Origin: a virus
Length of the DNA: 64,000 bases
IMG/VR virus record: IMGVR_UViG_3300021197_001233
Location: 1-64,000 of that record
Direction: 5' to 3' (one strand)
Below, piece after piece: positions 555 through 61,482 of the stretch (the first letter of the stretch is position 1; the number at the start of each line of letters is the position of its first letter). The notes below the pieces were generated by a model. The model saw only the letters and a list, made by a program, of their open reading frames with translations. It searched no databases and was not told where the DNA came from. The translations under genes were made by a program, and so were the position numbers.

Positions 555-588
555 GGTTATTGAATTGAAGTTTGTAAAAGTCTCGACA

Positions 589-620
589 CAAAGATAAGGA
601 ATTGATGTGGACAATTCCAA
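589..620 (-). promoter_or_regulatory. Early Bacteroidota-type promoter with DnaA-box-like spacer site
   Basis: Read on the minus strand, TTG (620-618) is followed after 21 bases by TATCTTTG (596-589), which fits TTG-N20-TAnnTTTG. Between them lies TTGTCCACA (614-606), one mismatch from the DnaA box TTATCCACA. The same site sits at the same place in the promoters at 2514-2544 and 3411-3440. It drives the gene starting at 554. Confidence 0.7.
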
Positions 621-656
621 ATTTTTGTTGAAAAGATTTGTTAAAGGCTTGGTTAG

Positions 657-737
657 AAGGGAGGTTGGGATTCGAACACAACCGCCGTCCGACACAAAGG
701 TCTTGGGAGTGGACGTGCGCACCGACTGCGCTCCCTT
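657..737 (-). ncRNA. tRNA-like element with expanded anticodon loop
   Basis: The minus strand has a perfect 7-bp acceptor-like stem (AAGGGAG with CTCCCTT), a D-arm-like hairpin CGC-AGTCGGT-GCG, and a T-arm-like hairpin around TTCGAAT. The five pairs CGTCC/GGACG sit where an anticodon stem belongs but enclose about 20 bases instead of 7. Positions 8-9 are missing and the T-stem has one mismatch. No clean anticodon can be assigned. It may be a degraded tRNA, a tRNA with an insertion, or a tRNA-like RNA domain. Confidence 0.4.
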
Positions 738-746
738 GAAGAAGGT

Positions 747-785
747 GAGGGGGCGGACTGACGTTTCAGCCACGCATACCCCCTC
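747..785 (-). other. Strong hairpin next to the tRNA-like element
   Basis: GAGGGGG (747-753) pairs perfectly with CCCCCTC (779-785), and an inner imperfect stem GACTGA/TCAGCC lies within. There is no U-tract, so it is not a classic terminator. It lies between the stop of the 69-residue gene at 803 and the tRNA-like element, and would be on the same leftward transcript. It could be a processing or transcript-end structure. Confidence 0.4.
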
Positions 786-802
786 GTTGGTCAAACTTCA
801 AA

Positions 803-1012
803 CTAACCAATACCGCTTACGATGTCCATCGCTTTGGTCATCGCATAAGTTCGCTGTTGCATCCCCGTCCCTGCAAGCTGTGGGGATGGCAAGTACACGA
901 AGGTAGAAAATGTTTTGTCATTCTCCAACCCTTCGATTGAATATCCTTTATCACCTCGCATAATGGCATCTGCCACGGCGTTGGTGTGGTAAATCTTTTC
1001 TTGAAGTGTCAT
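803..1012 (-). CDS. Hypothetical early protein, 69 residues
   Basis: Begins MTLQEKIYHTNAVADAIM. The ATG at 1012 overlaps the end of the upstream 144-residue gene by four bases, the usual spacing in this operon. It looks like a soluble mixed helix/strand protein and shows no recognised motif. It is the last gene before the structured non-coding stretch at 657-785. Confidence 0.65.
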   Translation of the reverse strand: MTLQEKIYHTNAVADAIMRGDKGYSIEGLENDKTFSTFVYLPSPQLAGTGMQQRTYAMTKAMDIVSGIG

Positions 1013-1443
1013 GATGTAAGTGCTTCAGTTTCAATAAGTTCCTGTTCAATGATTTGCCTCATGATGTGACTGATGATGCGGTCTATGATGTCTGCGCTAT
1101 CGGCCCAGTTGCAGTACCCTTGCGTAGTTTTCAACCAACCCCTGAACTCCTTGTGCAGGTTGTGTGGTGTGTGGTCGCGCAGGTAGTCCACCATGTCCTC
1201 GTAGTAGGAGTCCATCTTGTACTCGTCGTAGTAGGACTCGTCGCTTTCATAAACCTCCTCTGCTCTCCACAGGTTGCAGAACCCGTTGTTGTAGTAGTCG
1301 TAGCCGATTCGAGAGATAGCACGGAGGGCTTCGGGAAGTCCGTCATCTGCCTCACCTGACGTAGGGATGAGTTGCTTCCATGCGGCATCGTACTGCTCTT
1401 GATACTTGCCCTCCTTGTCCCAATATGTTCCTGTCTTACTCAT
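1009..1443 (-). CDS. Hypothetical acidic early protein, 144 residues
   Basis: Starts MSKTGTYWDKEGKYQEQYDA. The first part is rich in Tyr, Asp and Glu, including a run around YESDESYYDEYKMDSYYEDM; the C-terminal part resembles an amphipathic helix (IIDRIISHIMRQIIEQEL). No family recognised. The ATG at 1443 lies inside the end of the preceding 47-residue gene, just after an AACTTCAAAAC stretch that resembles the leader motif seen before other early genes. Confidence 0.7.
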   Translation of the reverse strand: MSKTGTYWDKEGKYQEQYDAAWKQLIPTSGEADDGLPEALRAISRIGYDYYNNGFCNLWRAEEVYESDESYYDEYKMDSYYEDMVDYLRDHTPHNLHKEFRGWLKTTQGYCNWADSADIIDRIISHIMRQIIEQELIETEALTS

Positions 1444-1579
1444 TCTCTTGTTGTTTTGAAGTTTGATATTCGTCGTGTGCTTGCTCGACCGCTTTGTTCA
1501 GCATCTCTGCCTCTGCTCGATCGATTGCCTGCCCTTGCATACGGGCAAGCTGAATGATTACGTCTACGATGTCAGTCAT
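1436..1579 (-). CDS. Hypothetical early peptide, 47 residues
   Basis: A short frame from the ATG at 1579 to the TAA at 1438-1436, beginning MTDIVDVIIQLARMQGQA and ending KQQENE. It looks mostly helical. Its last codons overlap the start of the 144-residue gene by eight bases, which fits translational coupling in this operon. Function unknown. Confidence 0.6.
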   Translation of the reverse strand: MTDIVDVIIQLARMQGQAIDRAEAEMLNKAVEQAHDEYQTSKQQENE

Positions 1580-1634
1580 GGTTGTCTCTGCTTGTTGGTG
1601 TAATTTCCATGGTCACGTCCCATATTATATTGTG

Positions 1635-1832
1635 TCATGTCAATGGTGTATGTGATTCCCAAAAGTGGATTTCTTCGTCGTGGATGCGGAAGCTCGTAGC
1701 AAATTTTAGCTCGTCGTTCCACACGCTGTCCAACCACACGCCGTGGTCGTCACGTGCTCCCATCACATGGGAGGCCTCGAACCCTTCTTTTTGCAGTGCT
1801 TTGACTGCACGTTCGCATTGTTCTTGTGTCAT
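1635..1832 (-). CDS. Hypothetical early protein, 65 residues
   Basis: Begins MTQEQCERAVKALQKEGFEA and is compact with mixed composition, including a VWLDSVWNDELKFATSF stretch likely to form strands. Its ATG overlaps the stop of the upstream 104-residue gene in the ATGA style. No family recognised; a small phage takeover protein is possible but there is no direct evidence. Confidence 0.65.
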   Translation of the reverse strand: MTQEQCERAVKALQKEGFEASHVMGARDDHGVWLDSVWNDELKFATSFRIHDEEIHFWESHTPLT

Positions 1833-2143
1833 AGGTCAATGATTACGCCCTTGTCTTTGAGGGCATTGATGATGTAGTCAGGGAGTTCGAAGCATCCGTC
1901 GTACCCCACGAGTCGCACGCTTCCGTCGTCGTCGTGCTCCGTTTCGAGCACACCCTCTGCATAGAATCGGTCGCCACCTGTGTCTAGGTCGTAGGTCTCG
2001 TACCATCCACCATATCCGTGGTCTGGGTCGATAGACACCTCGGTGTCCATGTCAACATTCTTTGCGGCATCAACGTCTACGTCGTAGGCGGTGCGCATTG
2101 ATACGAATGGGAGTGTGTGCTTGAAGCTGTGTGTGAATTTCAT
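1829..2143 (-). CDS. Hypothetical acidic early protein, 104 residues
   Basis: I place the start at the ATG at 2143 (MKFTHSFKHTLPFVSMRTAY) because it overlaps the stop of the upstream membrane peptide in the ATGA style, while the longer upstream extension looks non-coding. The protein is very Asp/Glu-rich (EVSIDPDHGYGG, TEHDDDGSV), a composition shared by many DNA-mimic or charge-mimic phage proteins, but no family is recognised. Confidence 0.65.
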   Translation of the reverse strand: MKFTHSFKHTLPFVSMRTAYDVDVDAAKNVDMDTEVSIDPDHGYGGWYETYDLDTGGDRFYAEGVLETEHDDDGSVRLVGYDGCFELPDYIINALKDKGVIIDL

Positions 2144-2244
2144 TGTGCTTTTGTTTCGTAGTGGTTCAACGTTTCGATGAGCAGTAGTCGTATGCAGGAG
2201 AGCACCATGCTCCACCCTGCGTATATCTGGATGGCTGTCATCAT
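2140..2244 (-). CDS. Small membrane peptide, 34 residues
   Basis: Frame from the ATG at 2244 (or the adjacent ATG at 2241) reading MMTAIQIYAGWSMVLSCIRL and ending HYETKAQ. The hydrophobic stretch from about residue 4 to 24 could span a membrane. It overlaps the stop of the 82-residue gene upstream and the start of the gene at 2143 downstream, so it is placed as a true operon member. Confidence 0.5.
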   Translation of the reverse strand: MMTAIQIYAGWSMVLSCIRLLLIETLNHYETKAQ

Positions 2245-2489
2245 TTTTTATCAAGCTTGAAGATGAGGTTGTTCTCTGCGTCGTTAGCGTAGTCGTCAAG
2301 CAGGTTGATGACCTCCTGAACGTGGTCAGGGTCTGCGTATTTCGTGTCTGAGAGCAGGGAGGCAAAGCCCTTCACATCCTTGGGCACAAGTCTGGCCGCT
2401 CGGTTGAGCTTGTTCAGGTTCGCACCGAAGTGGAAGTCATTGAGGAAGAGGACTGCGCGTCCTACGGGTTGTCCAAAGAAGTTGTCCAT
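2241..2489 (-). CDS. Hypothetical early protein, 82 residues
   Basis: Begins MDNFFGQPVGRAVLFLNDFH and ends NLIFKLDKK. It looks soluble and mostly helical (DPDHVQEVINLLDDYANDAEN). First gene after the promoter at 2514-2544, whose transcript would carry the leader GAACTTCAAACCCCAATACC before this ATG. No family recognised. Confidence 0.7.
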   Translation of the reverse strand: MDNFFGQPVGRAVLFLNDFHFGANLNKLNRAARLVPKDVKGFASLLSDTKYADPDHVQEVINLLDDYANDAENNLIFKLDKK

Positions 2490-2513
2490 GGTATTGGGGT
2501 TTGAAGTTCGGTG

Positions 2514-2544
2514 TAAAGATACAGCAATTTGTGGATGAATCCAA
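2514..2544 (-). promoter_or_regulatory. Early promoter with DnaA-box-like spacer site
   Basis: Minus strand: TTG (2544-2542), 20 bases, then TATCTTTA (2521-2514). TCATCCACA (2538-2530), one mismatch from the DnaA box TTATCCACA, occupies the spacer eight bases upstream of the -7 box. It precedes the gene starting at 2489 and has the same architecture as the promoters at 589-620 and 3411-3440. Confidence 0.7.
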
Positions 2545-2571
2545 ATTTCTGTTGAAAAGATTTGTTAATGC

Positions 2572-2736
2572 TCAGTAATCACGGGTCGTGATGCCGAAGC
2601 TACGCAGGTCGATGTACACGTCCTCGTCCCATGCGTCCTCGATGAGGCGCAACGCCTCCCTGTCGTCTGTGTCAGCGAAGTGTTCGTACGCGAGGACCTT
2701 TTCGTCTGCGCACAATTCTCTGAATGGATTAAACAT
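2572..2736 (-). CDS. Hypothetical acidic early protein, 54 residues
   Basis: The ATG at 2736 is chosen (MFNPFRELCADEKVLAYEHF) because the leader motif AAACTTCAAGCAA lies just upstream, as for its neighbours; the longer frame upstream runs through the preceding gene. The protein is acidic and ends LRSFGITTRDY. No family recognised. I see no clear -7 box close upstream, so it may be read from the promoter of the upstream genes. Confidence 0.6.
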   Translation of the reverse strand: MFNPFRELCADEKVLAYEHFADTDDREALRLIEDAWDEDVYIDLRSFGITTRDY

Positions 2737-2770
2737 TTGCTTGAAGTTTGATGGTGTAACTATCTGATAG

Positions 2771-2917
2771 TCAGGCCTTCCAGACCTCATCCAACATCCA
2801 ACCTTTCGTGCGTTCGATGTGCTTGATGAAGTTTGCAATGTGGCCTCCGTCCTCGAAGTCGCGGGTCATTGACCACTTCTTCCCGCAGGACATAATGAAT
2901 TGAATGGTAACTCTCAT
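2771..2917 (-). CDS. Hypothetical early protein, 48 residues
   Basis: Starts at the ATG at 2917 (MRVTIQFIMSCGKKWSMTRD) and ends MLDEVWKA. The start overlaps the stop of the upstream 34-residue membrane peptide (ATGA). Small, probably soluble and alpha/beta. Function unknown. Confidence 0.6.
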   Translation of the reverse strand: MRVTIQFIMSCGKKWSMTRDFEDGGHIANFIKHIERTKGWMLDEVWKA

Positions 2918-3018
2918 TGGTCTAGTGTGTTGAGGACATAGTCCACGAGGGCGACGAACCCGCACCCGCTTGCGAATACTACCGCGAGCGATACGAGCAG
3001 GACTACCGCCTCGCTCAT
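2914..3018 (-). CDS. Single-helix membrane peptide, 34 residues
   Basis: Reads MSEAVVLLVSLAVVFASGCG and ends YVLNTLDQ. Residues 4-27 form one strongly hydrophobic segment. It overlaps the next upstream and downstream genes by four bases each. Tiny early membrane peptides like this often act on the host envelope or on superinfection, but here that is inference only. Confidence 0.6.
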   Translation of the reverse strand: MSEAVVLLVSLAVVFASGCGFVALVDYVLNTLDQ

Positions 3019-3137
3019 GACTGCTTGTCTTTGAGGTTTGACACTGCATCCATGGCCATGCCTGTGAGCATGATGATGCCGACTACGCCGATGCCCGCCG
3101 CGAGCATGAGGTTGATGTTAAAAAGTAACTGAACCAT
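3015..3137 (-). CDS. Single-helix membrane peptide, 40 residues
   Basis: Reads MVQLLFNINLMLAAGIGVVG and ends SNLKDKQS, with a hydrophobic Gly-rich span at about residues 4-30. The leader AAACTTCAAACCCATACACA lies directly upstream of the ATG at 3137. It is followed without a gap by a second membrane peptide (2914-3018), so the two may work as a pair. Confidence 0.6.
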   Translation of the reverse strand: MVQLLFNINLMLAAGIGVVGIIMLTGMAMDAVSNLKDKQS

Positions 3138-3164
3138 TGTGTATGGGTTTGAAGTTTGATACAG

Positions 3165-3178
3165 ACCCCCGAAGGGGT
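3165..3178 (-). terminator. Short GC hairpin, weak terminator candidate
   Basis: On the minus strand ACCCC-TTCG-GGGGT, a 5-bp stem with a stable UUCG tetraloop, lies between the stop of the gene at 3210 and the leader of the gene at 3137. No U-tract follows on the minus strand, so termination would be partial at best. Confidence 0.35.
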
Positions 3179-3209
3179 TTCGTCCATTCAGGACTCGTCA
3201 GTGTACCTG

Positions 3210-3389
3210 TCAGATGGGGTCGAAGTACCTGCGAATCTCCTGCTCCGCACGCTCGTCCTCTGCATCGTCCGCACCGATGAGGTCGGCCAACGTCATGTGT
3301 GCGTCTGCGAAGTGGGTGGACACGATGTCCTGCACGATGGTGGTGAGGGCTTGTACGCGCCCCTCATGCGCTTGCTTGGAAGTAGCCAT
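3210..3389 (-). CDS. Hypothetical early protein, 59 residues
   Basis: The ATG at 3389 (MATSKQAHEGRVQALTTIVQ) follows the leader AAACTTCAACACC and the promoter at 3411-3440; the frame upstream of it covers the promoter and is not coding. Predicted all-helical and acidic at the C-terminus (DAEDERAEQEIRRYFDPI). No family recognised. Confidence 0.7.
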   Translation of the reverse strand: MATSKQAHEGRVQALTTIVQDIVSTHFADAHMTLADLIGADDAEDERAEQEIRRYFDPI

Positions 3390-3410
3390 GGTGTTGAAGT
3401 TTGATGGTCG

Positions 3411-3440
3411 CAAGATACGACCGAATTGTGGATAAAACAA
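3411..3440 (-). promoter_or_regulatory. Early promoter containing a perfect DnaA box
   Basis: Minus strand: TTG (3440-3438), 20 bases, TATCTTG (3417-3411). The spacer contains TTATCCACA (3435-3427), an exact match to the bacterial DnaA box. The equivalent position in two other early promoters of this window carries one-mismatch versions. This placement suggests an operator that could be read by host DnaA or by the phage DnaA-like protein at 61048-61482. Confidence 0.7.
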
Positions 3441-3472
3441 ATCTCTTTGTTAAGTCGCTGTGAGTCAGGAAG

Positions 3473-4087
3473 TTACAAGACGTCCTCGGCAGTCACGCCT
3501 CCGTCCATCATGTCCATGTTCACCGCACGCACCATGTCCATCACGTCCGTGTACCCCTCATCGCGCATTACCGCGTATGGTGTGGGTGGCGTGTAGTCTG
3601 CCGCGTGCTGTGGGCGGGGCTTGGGCGCAGGTGCGTCAACCTCCGTGCGTGTGCCGAATGGCGAGGCCTTGGTGGGCTTGTCGTCGCACACGACCTCGGT
3701 CTTGCGCACGTTCCGCTTGGCGCTCTCGCGGTTGCTCAGGCGTTGTGCCTGTGCCTCCAACTTGTCGTTCTTGGTCTTGCGCTTGGTCTTGCGCTTCGTG
3801 GGCTTGGGTGCGGGAGGCGTGGTGGCCTCCTGCACGTCCACGGGGGTGTACGTGTTCGCGCTCTGGCACGCATCCATGACATCGAACATTTGCTCCATCG
3901 TCATCCCGTACTGCTCGCACAGCACGTCCGCACGTGACTGCTTCGCAGTCTTGGCTTTGGCTTTGGCTTTGGGCTTGGCCGCTTGCTCCTGGGCGAACTT
4001 GGCTTTGTTCGCGGCACGGCGCTCGGCTCGGGTCAACTTGCGCCCCGTGTCGGGGCAGTGTGTGGGGGTGTAGGTCTTTGCAGACAT
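3473..4087 (-). CDS. Lys/Ala/Pro-rich low-complexity early protein, 204 residues
   Basis: I start it at the ATG at 4087 (MSAKTYTPTHCPDTGRKLTR), preceded by the leader AAACTTCAAACTTCTTACACC; the longer frame overlaps the promoter. The N-terminal half is strongly basic and repetitive (KPKAKAKAKTAKQ; KPTKRKTKRKTKNDK), the C-terminal end acidic (VMDMVRAVNMDMMDGG). A zinc-ribbon-like CPDTGRK occurs near the N-terminus but without a second Cys pair. The basic region suggests nucleic-acid binding. It is the first gene leftward from the divergent control region. Confidence 0.7.
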   Translation of the reverse strand: MSAKTYTPTHCPDTGRKLTRAERRAANKAKFAQEQAAKPKAKAKAKTAKQSRADVLCEQYGMTMEQMFDVMDACQSANTYTPVDVQEATTPPAPKPTKRKTKRKTKNDKLEAQAQRLSNRESAKRNVRKTEVVCDDKPTKASPFGTRTEVDAPAPKPRPQHAADYTPPTPYAVMRDEGYTDVMDMVRAVNMDMMDGGVTAEDVL

Positions 4088-4137
4088 GGTGTAAGAAGTT
4101 TGAAGTTTGCTCGGCCCGACTCTCGAACCGATGCCAA

Positions 4138-4489: not shown

Positions 4490-4647
4490 ATGTGTGGTTC
4501 TGATCGTTTTTTACGACCAAACCCGAAAAAACCGCCGATATCCGCAAAAATTTTCACGCGGTATTTTTTGATTGACTCCATCTAACCCCTCATAACTGAC
4601 TGATTTAGAGTAAGAAGCGGTATTTAGCCTCTAGTATAGCTTGAGTC

Positions 4648-4678
4648 TTGACTTTTAAAGATTTCTGTTATAACTTTG
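4648..4678 (+). promoter_or_regulatory. Rightward promoter in the control region
   Basis: TTG (4648-4650) followed after 20 bases by TAACTTTG (4671-4678) matches the Bacteroidota consensus. Transcription would start near 4685, about 155 bases before the first gene at 4840, so it would make a structured leader or a small RNA covering the palindromes at 4716-4806. Confidence 0.55.
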
Positions 4679-56668: not shown

Positions 56669-58495
56669 TTACACTGAATTTTCTGAAGAATCAACTCCTG
56701 TGGATAAGAAATTCGTGAAGACAGGCATTGTACCCTTCTCTTCAAACTTAATCGACTCGAACAGAGGGCGTTGTCTTGCCCACGAGAAAAAGCCTGTGTG
56801 GGAAAGATTCATGACAAGCTTGTACGGCTCGTCCAGCGGTGTAGGCCTACCGCCTGTCTCTGTCTCGCGCACCTTTCGTACGTGTAACTCGCTCAGCTTA
56901 CGGATGTTATGATCTGCCGATTGAACCTTTCGGTGAATCGTCATGAAGCAATCCGCTCTGTTTACGAACTTTCCACCGCCCTCTGTATCCTCGGCGTACG
57001 GGGCAACAGGTAGCCCGTCAGCACCCTTACGGCGCTGCGCCTCAGTGACAGCGTGCATATTCAACCATACGGCCACGTTGTTGGACTTGCTAAACGTCAA
57101 GAACTCCGACGCGGCCTCGTAGTGGTAGTCGTGTACACCGATGGATGTGTTGCGCATATCCAGCTTGAGGCTGTTGTACGGGTCAATAAATACCGCATCG
57201 ACCTCTTGCTGTCGCATGATCTTCTCCATGAAGACAATGATATCTGAGTAGGAGTACACGCTCTCGTTGCTGATAACCACGAAATGCTCCTGCACCCAGG
57301 CGTATGCCTTCTTGCGCTCGAAGTAGTTCATGTCTGCGACTTTCTTGTCCATAGCGAACTGCATGAGCTGCATCTTTACGGATGCGGTCCTGTTCTCACT
57401 GGAGTATATAATCCATTTCCACCCGTGCCTAATCGAAGCATTGGCGATAAGGTACAGGGCTGTGGTGGTCTTACCCACGTTGGAGTGCCCATTGATGATG
57501 ACGAACTCCTTCTTGTATCGGAAGTATTCGTCGAGGGCGGTGTCCCCTGTGTCAAGGCCAATCTCAATCTTGCCCTGAGAGTAGTCGTCGATCCAGCGGA
57601 AGTCCTCGTCGTCGGACGACACGAAGGACATGTCCCCGTCGTTGATAAGCATCTCGCGCTTGACGTTCTTCTCTTCATCGATGAGGTCACGTATGGGCAT
57701 AACCTTACCATTCTCAATGCCATCGCGGATCGTAAGCTTAGCCATCTCTGGCGAGTCGATGTCTCTCTTGGAGATCTCCCTGAATAGGATACGTACCGCC
57801 TCGTCCTCCTCCATCTTCCCTGCCCCGATGTATCCGCCGCATAGTCTAGCCGCATCGAAGAGCTTTCTGTGTTTGTCCCCGTCCTCGGCGTTGCGAATCA
57901 TTCGCGCGGCCAGGTTGAGCTTCATGTAGTCGGTGTAGTCGTACGCTTCGTTGGTGGGCACCTGAGCCTCGGCTCGCTCTGTGGTGAACGCCCCAAACTT
58001 CTTGTTCTCGTCCTTGATGATGATGTCTGGGTCATGCGACTCCCAACAGGCTCGTGACTCATTAACACCTGACTCGTCTAGCCCAAGGCCGTGTGTTCTA
58101 TCGAAGTACTTGATGAGGGCTCTAAAGTGATCCCTGTGCCGCTCTGGATTGGTGATCTGGACCAGTGCCTTGACCCCCTCTCCGCTAGGCGAAGTCCAGC
58201 ATGAATGAATGAAATCATCCGTTGCAAGGGCCGTCTTGGTCGCGTTAACGTCAACGTGGTCAAAGTCCAAAACAATAAATCCCGAATGCTCGAAGAGCGC
58301 GTCATCGGCACGCGACGAAAACTCCCCGCTGAAACAAACAACGGGGAGCGCCTTTTTCTTCTCTTTGTCACCAGTCCTAACATCAGCTACTAGTGTACTC
58401 GACTTCCCATCTCGAATCCTCTCCAGAGCTAACTGTAGTGGAATGTGATGAGGTGTTGTCTTGTCGAATACGTCTTTGAATATCGTTACTTGCAT
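56669..58495 (-). CDS. Primase-helicase, BT4734/VirE-like N-terminus and DnaB-like ATPase
   Basis: I start at the ATG at 58495 (MQVTIFKDVFDKTTPHHIPL) rather than the TTG at 58507. Residues 1-200: SGFIVLDFDHVDVNATK and CWTSPSGEGVKALVQI, a BT4734-like primase/polymerase-type fold. Residues 330-560: Walker A IINGHSNVGKTTTALYL, Walker B DAVFIDPYNSLKL, and EDTEGGGKFVNRADCFMTIH, a RecA-like DnaB-type helicase. One chain could prime and unwind the fork, as T7 gp4 does. No DNA polymerase is in the window. Confidence 0.8.
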   Translation of the reverse strand: MQVTIFKDVFDKTTPHHIPLQLALERIRDGKSSTLVADVRTGDKEKKKALPVVCFSGEFSSRADDALFEHSGFIVLDFDHVDVNATKTALATDDFIHSCWTSPSGEGVKALVQITNPERHRDHFRALIKYFDRTHGLGLDESGVNESRACWESHDPDIIIKDENKKFGAFTTERAEAQVPTNEAYDYTDYMKLNLAARMIRNAEDGDKHRKLFDAARLCGGYIGAGKMEEDEAVRILFREISKRDIDSPEMAKLTIRDGIENGKVMPIRDLIDEEKNVKREMLINDGDMSFVSSDDEDFRWIDDYSQGKIEIGLDTGDTALDEYFRYKKEFVIINGHSNVGKTTTALYLIANASIRHGWKWIIYSSENRTASVKMQLMQFAMDKKVADMNYFERKKAYAWVQEHFVVISNESVYSYSDIIVFMEKIMRQQEVDAVFIDPYNSLKLDMRNTSIGVHDYHYEAASEFLTFSKSNNVAVWLNMHAVTEAQRRKGADGLPVAPYAEDTEGGGKFVNRADCFMTIHRKVQSADHNIRKLSELHVRKVRETETGGRPTPLDEPYKLVMNLSHTGFFSWARQRPLFESIKFEEKGTMPVFTNFLSTGVDSSENSV

Positions 58496-58748
58496 TGTCT
58501 TTGGCAATCATTAAGAGAATCATGTATCCTGCCAGGTCTTGCAGGGTGTCTTCTGTGTCGTCGATCGGACCTGAGTTCTTGATGCGCTTGAGTTTGTCAT
58601 CAATTCTTGCTTTGATACTTGACACTGCGTTTACCTGCGAGAATATGTTGAGTGGCTCCAAGGCCGCATCCCCATACTTCGCATTCTTTTGAAGCAGTAA
58701 GTCCTCTAACTTCTTGCACTTCAATTTAATTTTCTGTCTTGTGTTCAT
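58383..58748 (-). CDS. MazG/DUF1599-like all-alpha protein, 121 residues
   Basis: Begins MNTRQKIKLKCKKLEDLLLQ. LLLQKNAKYGDAALEPLNIF, then IKARIDDKLKRIKN and DTEDTLQDLAGYMILLMIAK are the helices of a MazG-like/DUF1599 (Nmad1-type) nucleotide-binding fold, with E/D-x-x-D metal ligands. It may hydrolyse or help modify nucleotides. Its last 37 residues overlap the primase-helicase start by 113 bases in another frame, an unusually long overlap here. Confidence 0.65.
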   Translation of the reverse strand: MNTRQKIKLKCKKLEDLLLQKNAKYGDAALEPLNIFSQVNAVSSIKARIDDKLKRIKNSGPIDDTEDTLQDLAGYMILLMIAKDNASNDIQRRIRQDNTSSHSTTVSSGEDSRWEVEYTSS

Positions 58749-61047: not shown

Positions 61048-61482
61048 TTAAGCAGAAGGCATTTGATATCCAAGCTCATCCTTGAGCTTTTCCTCCATTT
61101 CCATTAACAACTTTATGCTTTTCTGAACCTCGATTAGCCTGTCATGAGATGTCAGTTTTGTGGATATGGGCTTAATATCCATTTCTTCCGAAAGATCCAT
61201 GACTATTCTAGTGGCAAGTGAGTACTTACGTAAATAGTCGGGGGAGTGGAGCATAAGACCGCCATGCTCTTTGCTGTGATGCACAAAGGTTGAGTGGTCT
61301 TTATTGAACAGACTGCCTATTTGTGCAAGCGTGGCGTATGGACGCATGGCGTTGCCAAGAGCGGCCCTGCTCTCCACGAAGTATCTGAGTCGAGAGTTGT
61401 CCTCAATGACTTCACCTGTCTCAGACTCGAATCTAATACGAGTGCCGCGAAGCAGTGTCTCTATTTTTTGTTTTTGACTCAT
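61048..61482 (-). CDS. DnaA domain IV-like DNA-binding protein, 144 residues
   Basis: Begins MSQKQKIETLLRGTRIRFES. Residues 35-80, ESRAALGNAMRPYATLAQIG then SLFNKDHSTFVHHSKEH, follow the DnaA domain IV helix-turn-helix, whose signature is I-G-x-x-F-x-x-x-D-H-(S/T)-T-V-x-H. The C-terminal half is a long helix (IKLLMEMEEKLKDELGYQ). It lacks the DnaA ATPase. It may bind DnaA-box-like sites, of which several lie in early promoters of this phage, as initiator or regulator. Confidence 0.65.
   Translation of the reverse strand: MSQKQKIETLLRGTRIRFESETGEVIEDNSRLRYFVESRAALGNAMRPYATLAQIGSLFNKDHSTFVHHSKEHGGLMLHSPDYLRKYSLATRIVMDLSEEMDIKPISTKLTSHDRLIEVQKSIKLLMEMEEKLKDELGYQMPSA

Follow-up and report, generated by a model that had tools for sequence, protein, structure and literature searches.

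DnaA-box-like sites in three predicted early promoters of a phage that encodes a standalone DnaA-domain-IV-like protein

Boxes in the spacers of three leftward promoters

Three predicted promoters in the IMG/VR virus record IMGVR_UViG_3300021197_001233 carry a DnaA-box-like 9-mer within their spacer, and the same virus encodes a 144-residue protein that resembles domain IV of DnaA (hereafter the DnaA-IV protein). The stretch of DNA that we analysed (the window; 64,000 nucleotides, positions 1 to 64,000) is nearly all of this 64,217-base record and resembles podovirus-like Bacteroidota phages: its terminase is related to those of Flavobacterium elemo phages and Cellulophaga phages, and it encodes a crAss-type muzzle domain. 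Comparison of the first 8 kb of the window with phage records gave no DNA match. Late genes run in the rightward direction. A leftward block of genes extends from about 4.6 kb to position 1 and then from 64.2 kb to about 55 kb, a continuity that was judged from two relatives in which these parts are contiguous, and from its gene content and orientation we infer that this block is early. Within this block the three boxes fall in the stretch of small genes, and the genes for the DnaA-IV protein and for a primase/DnaB-like helicase lie further down (Table 1).

The three box-bearing promoters (P1, P2 and P3) are predicted to be sigma-A-type Bacteroidota promoters of the form TTTG...TATCTT. Together with a fourth promoter, P4, which has no box, they resemble the Bacteroidota sigma-A promoter (-33 TTG, -7 TAnnTTTG) in presenting TTTG...TATCTT at 20-21 bp; TAnnTTTG is the -7 consensus of F. 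psychrophilum (PMC9723704). P1 is the only one of the three box-bearing promoters with the full TAnnTTTG, which P4 also matches exactly. P2 (TATCTTTA) and P3 (TATCTTGC) deviate from it at the 3′ end of the -7 box, and P1-P3 further differ from the Bacteroidota promoter in adding TCCACA, the core common to all three spacers, with the boxes in the same orientation. The original prediction had put these boxes within 20-21-bp spacers, at 8-9 bp from the -7 box on its upstream side, and we find all three 9-mers at the positions and on the strand it gave, at distances of 9, 8 and 9 bp in spacers of 21, 20 and 20 bp; the site in P3 is an exact box (TTATCCACA), as claimed, and the other two each have one mismatch.

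P1 and P2 share a 39-nt unit that takes in an upstream element, the -33 region and the box, and the likeness between them runs exactly up to the last base of the box, without reaching the -7 element. Both also have a weak box 20 bp (two helical turns) further upstream; P3, with its perfect box, has none. The pairing of a second weak box with the one-mismatch boxes of P1 and P2 is suggestive only. We considered the inverted repeat that spans box 1 as an operator for a dimer and dropped it, since P2 and P3 are without such a repeat.

Table 1 Features of the leftward block (positions in the window; G001 and G002 are two close relatives)
Feature	Coordinates	Strand	Details
Promoter P1	589..620	-	TTG 620-618; 21-bp spacer; -7 box TATCTTTG at 596-589; same in G001 and G002
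Box 1	606..614	-	TTGTCCACA; 1 mismatch; 9 bp upstream of P1 -7 box
Inverted repeat spanning box 1	598..618	-	GGAATTG-TCCACAT-CAATTCC; 7-bp arms; identical in G001 and G002
Degenerate box upstream of box 1	626..634	-	TTTTCAACA; 2 mismatches; 20 bp upstream of box 1, same orientation
39-nt repeat unit, P1 copy	606..644	-	upstream element, -33 region, box
Promoter P2	2514..2544	-	TTG 2544-2542; 20-bp spacer; -7 box TATCTTTA at 2521-2514
Box 2	2530..2538	-	TCATCCACA; 1 mismatch; 8 bp upstream of P2 -7 box
Degenerate box upstream of box 2	2550..2558	-	TTTTCAACA; 20 bp upstream of box 2, same orientation
39-nt repeat unit, P2 copy	2530..2568	-	90% identical to P1 copy
Promoter P3	3410..3440	-	TTG 3440-3438; 20-bp spacer; -7 box TATCTTGC at 3417-3410
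Box 3	3427..3435	-	TTATCCACA; exact; 9 bp upstream of P3 -7 box
Promoter P4	4138..4168	-	no box; TTG 4168-4166; 20-bp spacer; -7 box TATCTTTG at 4145-4138
Primase/DnaB-like helicase	56669..58507	-	downstream of DnaA-IV gene, same leftward block
DnaA-IV protein	61048..61482	-	standalone, 144 aa; R31 = Arg399 equivalent; D62-H63-S64-T65 = Asp433-His434-Thr435-Thr436 equivalents

The number of boxes in the genome is ordinary. Allowing up to one mismatch, we found 18 genome-wide against 13.3 +/- 3.5 expected, which is the level of chance, and it is therefore the placement of the boxes that constitutes the signal; a second exact TTATCCACA lies at 56707-56699, within the primase-helicase gene. A box with one mismatch allowed occurs in a random spacer of the same composition with p = 0.0024, and its occurrence in three of six spacers has p = 3e-7, or 6e-5 if P1 and P2 are counted as one origin and 0.01 if all three promoters are; these values are post hoc, the motif having been picked because it had already been seen. 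A scan of viral contigs for TTTG-N5/6-TCCACA-N8/9-TATCTT returned 113 stretches where a rough estimate of chance gives about 84, and on this basis we rejected the box in the spacer as a widespread type of promoter. Only G001 had two matches in the scan. In an unrelated contig, L302, TAATCCACA lies near 3821 on the minus strand within the spacer of a TTTGGA...TATCTTTG promoter, probably by chance.

P1, P2 and P3 are present with their boxes at unchanged offsets in both G001 and G002, box 3 reading TTATCCACA in the former and TTTTCCACA in the latter. Fourfold-degenerate (silent) sites diverge by 0.20-0.56 between the genomes of this clade, and the retention of the promoters despite such divergence therefore indicates either selection or a likeness maintained by recombination. 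Alignment of the three genomes shows that at P3 the upstream flank varies and TCCACAATTCGG is unchanged, and that at P2 the bases following the box vary; the specific sequence upstream of P1 and P2 was found in G001 and G002 only. G002 has a different first gene behind P2 and P4, and G001 behind P1 and P3, with the boxes retained, and the pair of first genes at P3 has in common a C-terminal stretch, LTLADLIG. Since first genes have been exchanged at each of P1-P4, the promoters act as cassettes that sit between interchangeable small genes. In T4-type phages, PeSL cassettes likewise consist of repeated early promoters with exchanged small genes behind them (PMC4503421); the promoters of the window differ from these in being of the sigma-A Bacteroidota type, and no terminator stem-loop was identified in the unit, where the inverted repeat at P1 was the only one seen, terminators not having been scanned for.

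A standalone protein with the fold of DnaA domain IV

The original prediction described the product of 61048-61482 as resembling DnaA domain IV without an ATPase, and modelling bears this out. An AlphaFold2 model built from 25 family members has a pLDDT of 88.9, and among 998 aligned chains its top structural matches are 3pvp (Z 10.7) and 1j1v (Z 10.3), both of them complexes with a DnaA box. The five best chains are all DnaA (Z 7.7-10.7, the full DnaA structures scoring 8.9-7.7), and the next, unrelated chain scores 6.5. MarR-type helical repressors topped DnaA when matches were ranked by Foldseek E-value, but none was significant and their TM-scores were low; VIA-align placed DnaA first. Sequence comparison gave weaker matches: a search of the PDB with the single protein found none, the family profile found weak matches to DnaA (1j1v, E = 0.023), and the assignment was settled by the comparison of folds. 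The protein scores 19.7 bits against Pfam PF08299, under the gathering cut-off of 31.5, eight of its relatives score above that cut-off, and it has no PHROG match. Taken together, these comparisons confirm, at the level of the predicted model, a DnaA domain IV that lacks the ATPase.

E. coli DnaA uses Arg399 to read the TTA half of the box through the minor groove, and TnCACA is read by the helix that begins at residue 434 (PMC5742627). Profile alignment to 1J1V assigned R31, D62, H63, S64 and T65 of the phage protein to the equivalents of box-reading residues, and R31 and H63 are invariant across the 25 aligned family members. The phage protein is thus like DnaA domain IV (PF08299; 1J1V, 3PVP) in its fold, in its basic-loop arginine and in its DHST motif; it differs in having only the domain IV match, with neither the AAA+ ATPase domain nor the N-terminal domains, in carrying an extra C-terminal helix at residues 112-137, and in falling below the Pfam cut-off. 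A search with a six-row alignment of the family found no new close relatives with an early region and no members in bacterial genomes. A promoter-like sequence of the form TTG-N20-TAAATTTG or similar is present where the DnaA-IV gene ends, or directly behind it, in G003, G005, G010, G011, G012, G025 and G030.

How the boxes may be read

We tentatively favour the reading in which the boxes are a clade-specific operator in the promoter spacer, most likely bound by the phage DnaA-IV protein, that shuts the early promoters off. What we infer here is binding, repression and the identity of the reader. In the clade of three genomes P1-P3 would be early promoters of the host sigma-A type with an operator core, TCCACA, between -33 and -7; a protein on TCCACA would straddle the spacer and block RNA polymerase, repression being the effect that a bound spacer site would most simply have. 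The phage DnaA-IV protein is the natural candidate for the reader because it keeps the residues for the box sequence and is encoded in the same leftward block. Also in favour of an operator are the common orientation and near-constant position of three near-consensus boxes, their retention in G001 and G002 where flanks and first genes vary, the end of the P1/P2 repeat at the box, and the DnaA matches of the model together with the invariant R31 and H63. As this protein accumulated it would turn off the strong promoters of the small early genes, and the box-free P4 and internal promoters would remain active, giving a delayed negative feedback. If this is so, the phage has turned the DNA-binding domain of a replication initiator into a switch for transcription, and all phages of this kind would also carry a protein able to occupy the DnaA boxes of their hosts. 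The pairing of the boxes with the protein is real and conserved in the two close relatives and is missing from about 30 more distant ones, so that it would represent at most a local regulatory invention; a regulatory interpretation limited to this clade is plausible.

Several observations weigh against such an operator. P1 and P2 are not independent, because they share the 39-nt repeat, and P3 resembles a promoter of the relative G023 (TCCACAATT versus TCGACAATT), so that the common core may reflect shared descent. Variable columns number 1 of 27 in the boxes and 5 of 26 in the part of the spacer that separates box from -7 (a hand count on the three-genome alignments), which suggests that the box is weakly better conserved than its neighbourhood and not clearly above the rest of the promoter. 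Beyond the clade, the protein family is widespread in this group of phages, being present at 30-45% identity in most of the genomes that we collected through the primase/DnaB-like helicase of the window. In 33 other genomes, most of them with the protein, none of 38 predicted intergenic promoters has a box, a count that rests on simple gene and promoter predictions, some of the genomes being near-duplicate or partial, many relatives showing few recognisable early promoters and the orthology of the 38 to P1-P3 being uncertain. By comparison, 8 of 16 predicted promoters in the window's clade are boxed, one further boxed promoter of G001 having been removed by the coding filter. Nor was a box found at any of 78 promoter-like sites in the loci recovered with the six-row alignment. 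The expectation that the sites would recur in the early promoters of relatives was thus borne out for all three boxes in G001 and G002 and not in the 33 other genomes.

Some of these relatives have promoters of the same architecture with other spacers (TCGACA, TCGAAA, TCGTAA, GTAAA). G023 keeps a canonical reader (DHAT), yet the spacer of its promoter (TTTGGATTCTCGACAATTTGTTCATATCTTTG) has TCGACA and no box; G032 and G034 keep a reader of the DHSS type, and several of their promoters (TTTGGAAAATCGAAAACTCTGCCTTATCTTTG and two others) are without a box. By the refuting condition set in the original prediction, a general model in which a DnaA-type protein reads early promoters for the most part fares badly: the wider group has the protein and lacks the box, also where the promoter architecture is alike. 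In G008, G020 and G017 (L019, L066 and L055) the otherwise invariant equivalent of His434 is an arginine (DRST, DRTA and DRSS), and G008 and G020 keep the promoter frame, with GTAAA replacing TCCACA (TTTGGAATTTSGTAAAGTTTGTTRTATCTTTG, where S is C or G and R is G or A; no box), a combination that fits what co-variation of protein and site would predict. Phages G026-G028 (L353-L358), which also encode a DnaA-IV protein, have two early promoters whose upstream flanks are unrelated and whose spacers share a motif, GTTAAT-N6-GTTAAT (reverse strand). One might extend the operator to the whole phage family, with ATPase-less DnaA domain IV regulators acting on lineage-specific spacer operators and with site and recognition helix changing together (TCCACA with DHST, GTAAA with DRST or DRTA, GTTAAT-N6-GTTAAT with NHAS). 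We regard this extension as doubtful. The change from His434 to arginine is a single lineage contrast, and G023 and G032/G034 do not fit co-variation.

Almost as likely as the clade-specific operator, and itself a real possibility, is that the resemblance to a DnaA box is incidental. P1-P3 would then be paralogues derived from a single strong Bacteroidota promoter, spread together with shuffled early genes, and TCCACA a piece of inherited spacer kept by repeat recombination or by promoter strength and unread by a DnaA-type protein. What brings this explanation so close is that almost identical sequence (TCGACAATT) in related promoters does not match a DnaA box; with TCGACA, TCGAAA and TCGTAA at the same place, a match to the box is a few changes away. 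The repeat shared by P1 and P2, the differing first genes behind the same promoter, the boxless promoters of the relatives and the near-chance outcome of the viral-contig scan all speak for it. Against it, TCCACA is present in all three spacers and fixed in three genomes at 20-56% silent divergence, and the likeness of P1 to P2 ends at the box and not at the -7 element. If the resemblance is incidental, the case is a caution against giving a regulatory reading to a well-known motif that is matched over a short length in a duplicated promoter.

It is unlikely that host DnaA reads the boxes and so makes early transcription sensitive to the host's replication state, a use of host DnaA as a signal that the original prediction had also raised and for which we found no support. 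The P3 box is the exact consensus, DnaA regulates transcription at many promoters (PMC11317965), and lambda pR, likewise a phage early promoter with a DnaA-type site, is stimulated by E. coli DnaA (PMC7466680); here, in contrast to lambda pR, the sites are single and lie within promoter spacers, and they are more likely to be read by the phage-encoded domain IV. At almost all of its targets E. coli DnaA requires two boxes separated by 2-3 bp (PMC11317965), whereas the boxes of P1-P3 are single, the nearest degenerate box on the same strand being 20 bp off in P1 and P2 and absent in P3, which makes host DnaA the less likely reader; the boxes are, moreover, absent in relatives that presumably infect similar hosts.

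A phage replication origin close to where the two gene blocks diverge, to which the boxes would belong and with the DnaA-IV protein as origin-binding protein, is highly improbable: cumulative GC skew does turn at about 4 kb and about 54 kb, and the DnaA-IV gene does lie upstream of the primase-helicase gene in the same block, but the skew can be explained by gene orientation alone, the boxes are 0.9-1.9 kb apart, and neither the window nor its relatives have a box cluster or iteron array. The proposed coupling of early transcription to replication is likewise unsupported, with no such cluster or array and no pair of boxes 2-3 bp apart.

Other features of the early region

A late promoter (TTGACTTTTAAAGATTTCTGTTATAACTTTG) lies at 4646-4678 on the plus strand and is recognisable at the divergence in many relatives. 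Upstream of P1, at about 657-738 on the minus strand, is a tRNA-like stretch (GGGAGCGCAGTCGGTGCGC ... GTTCGAATCCCAACCTCCC) that is conserved in relatives and was not called by ARAGORN or Rfam. A candidate hammerhead ribozyme (CTGACGAG...CGAAAC) occupies 3159-3206 on the minus strand, with a match to the Rfam type I family (22.6 bits, E 0.044) that is below the gathering score; similar cores are present in the leaders of early genes in G003, G005, G006, G007 and G009. Inverted repeats of about 60 nt (GAGAGTGTTAGTATATATCTCTCT...AGAGAGATATATACAACACCTCTC) recur in the leaders of small early genes in L217, L171, L178 and other relatives and were not seen in the window's clade. Finally, a leader motif, TCAAACTTCAA, stands shortly before many early ATG codons (560-4110 in the window), both in the window's clade and in more distant relatives.

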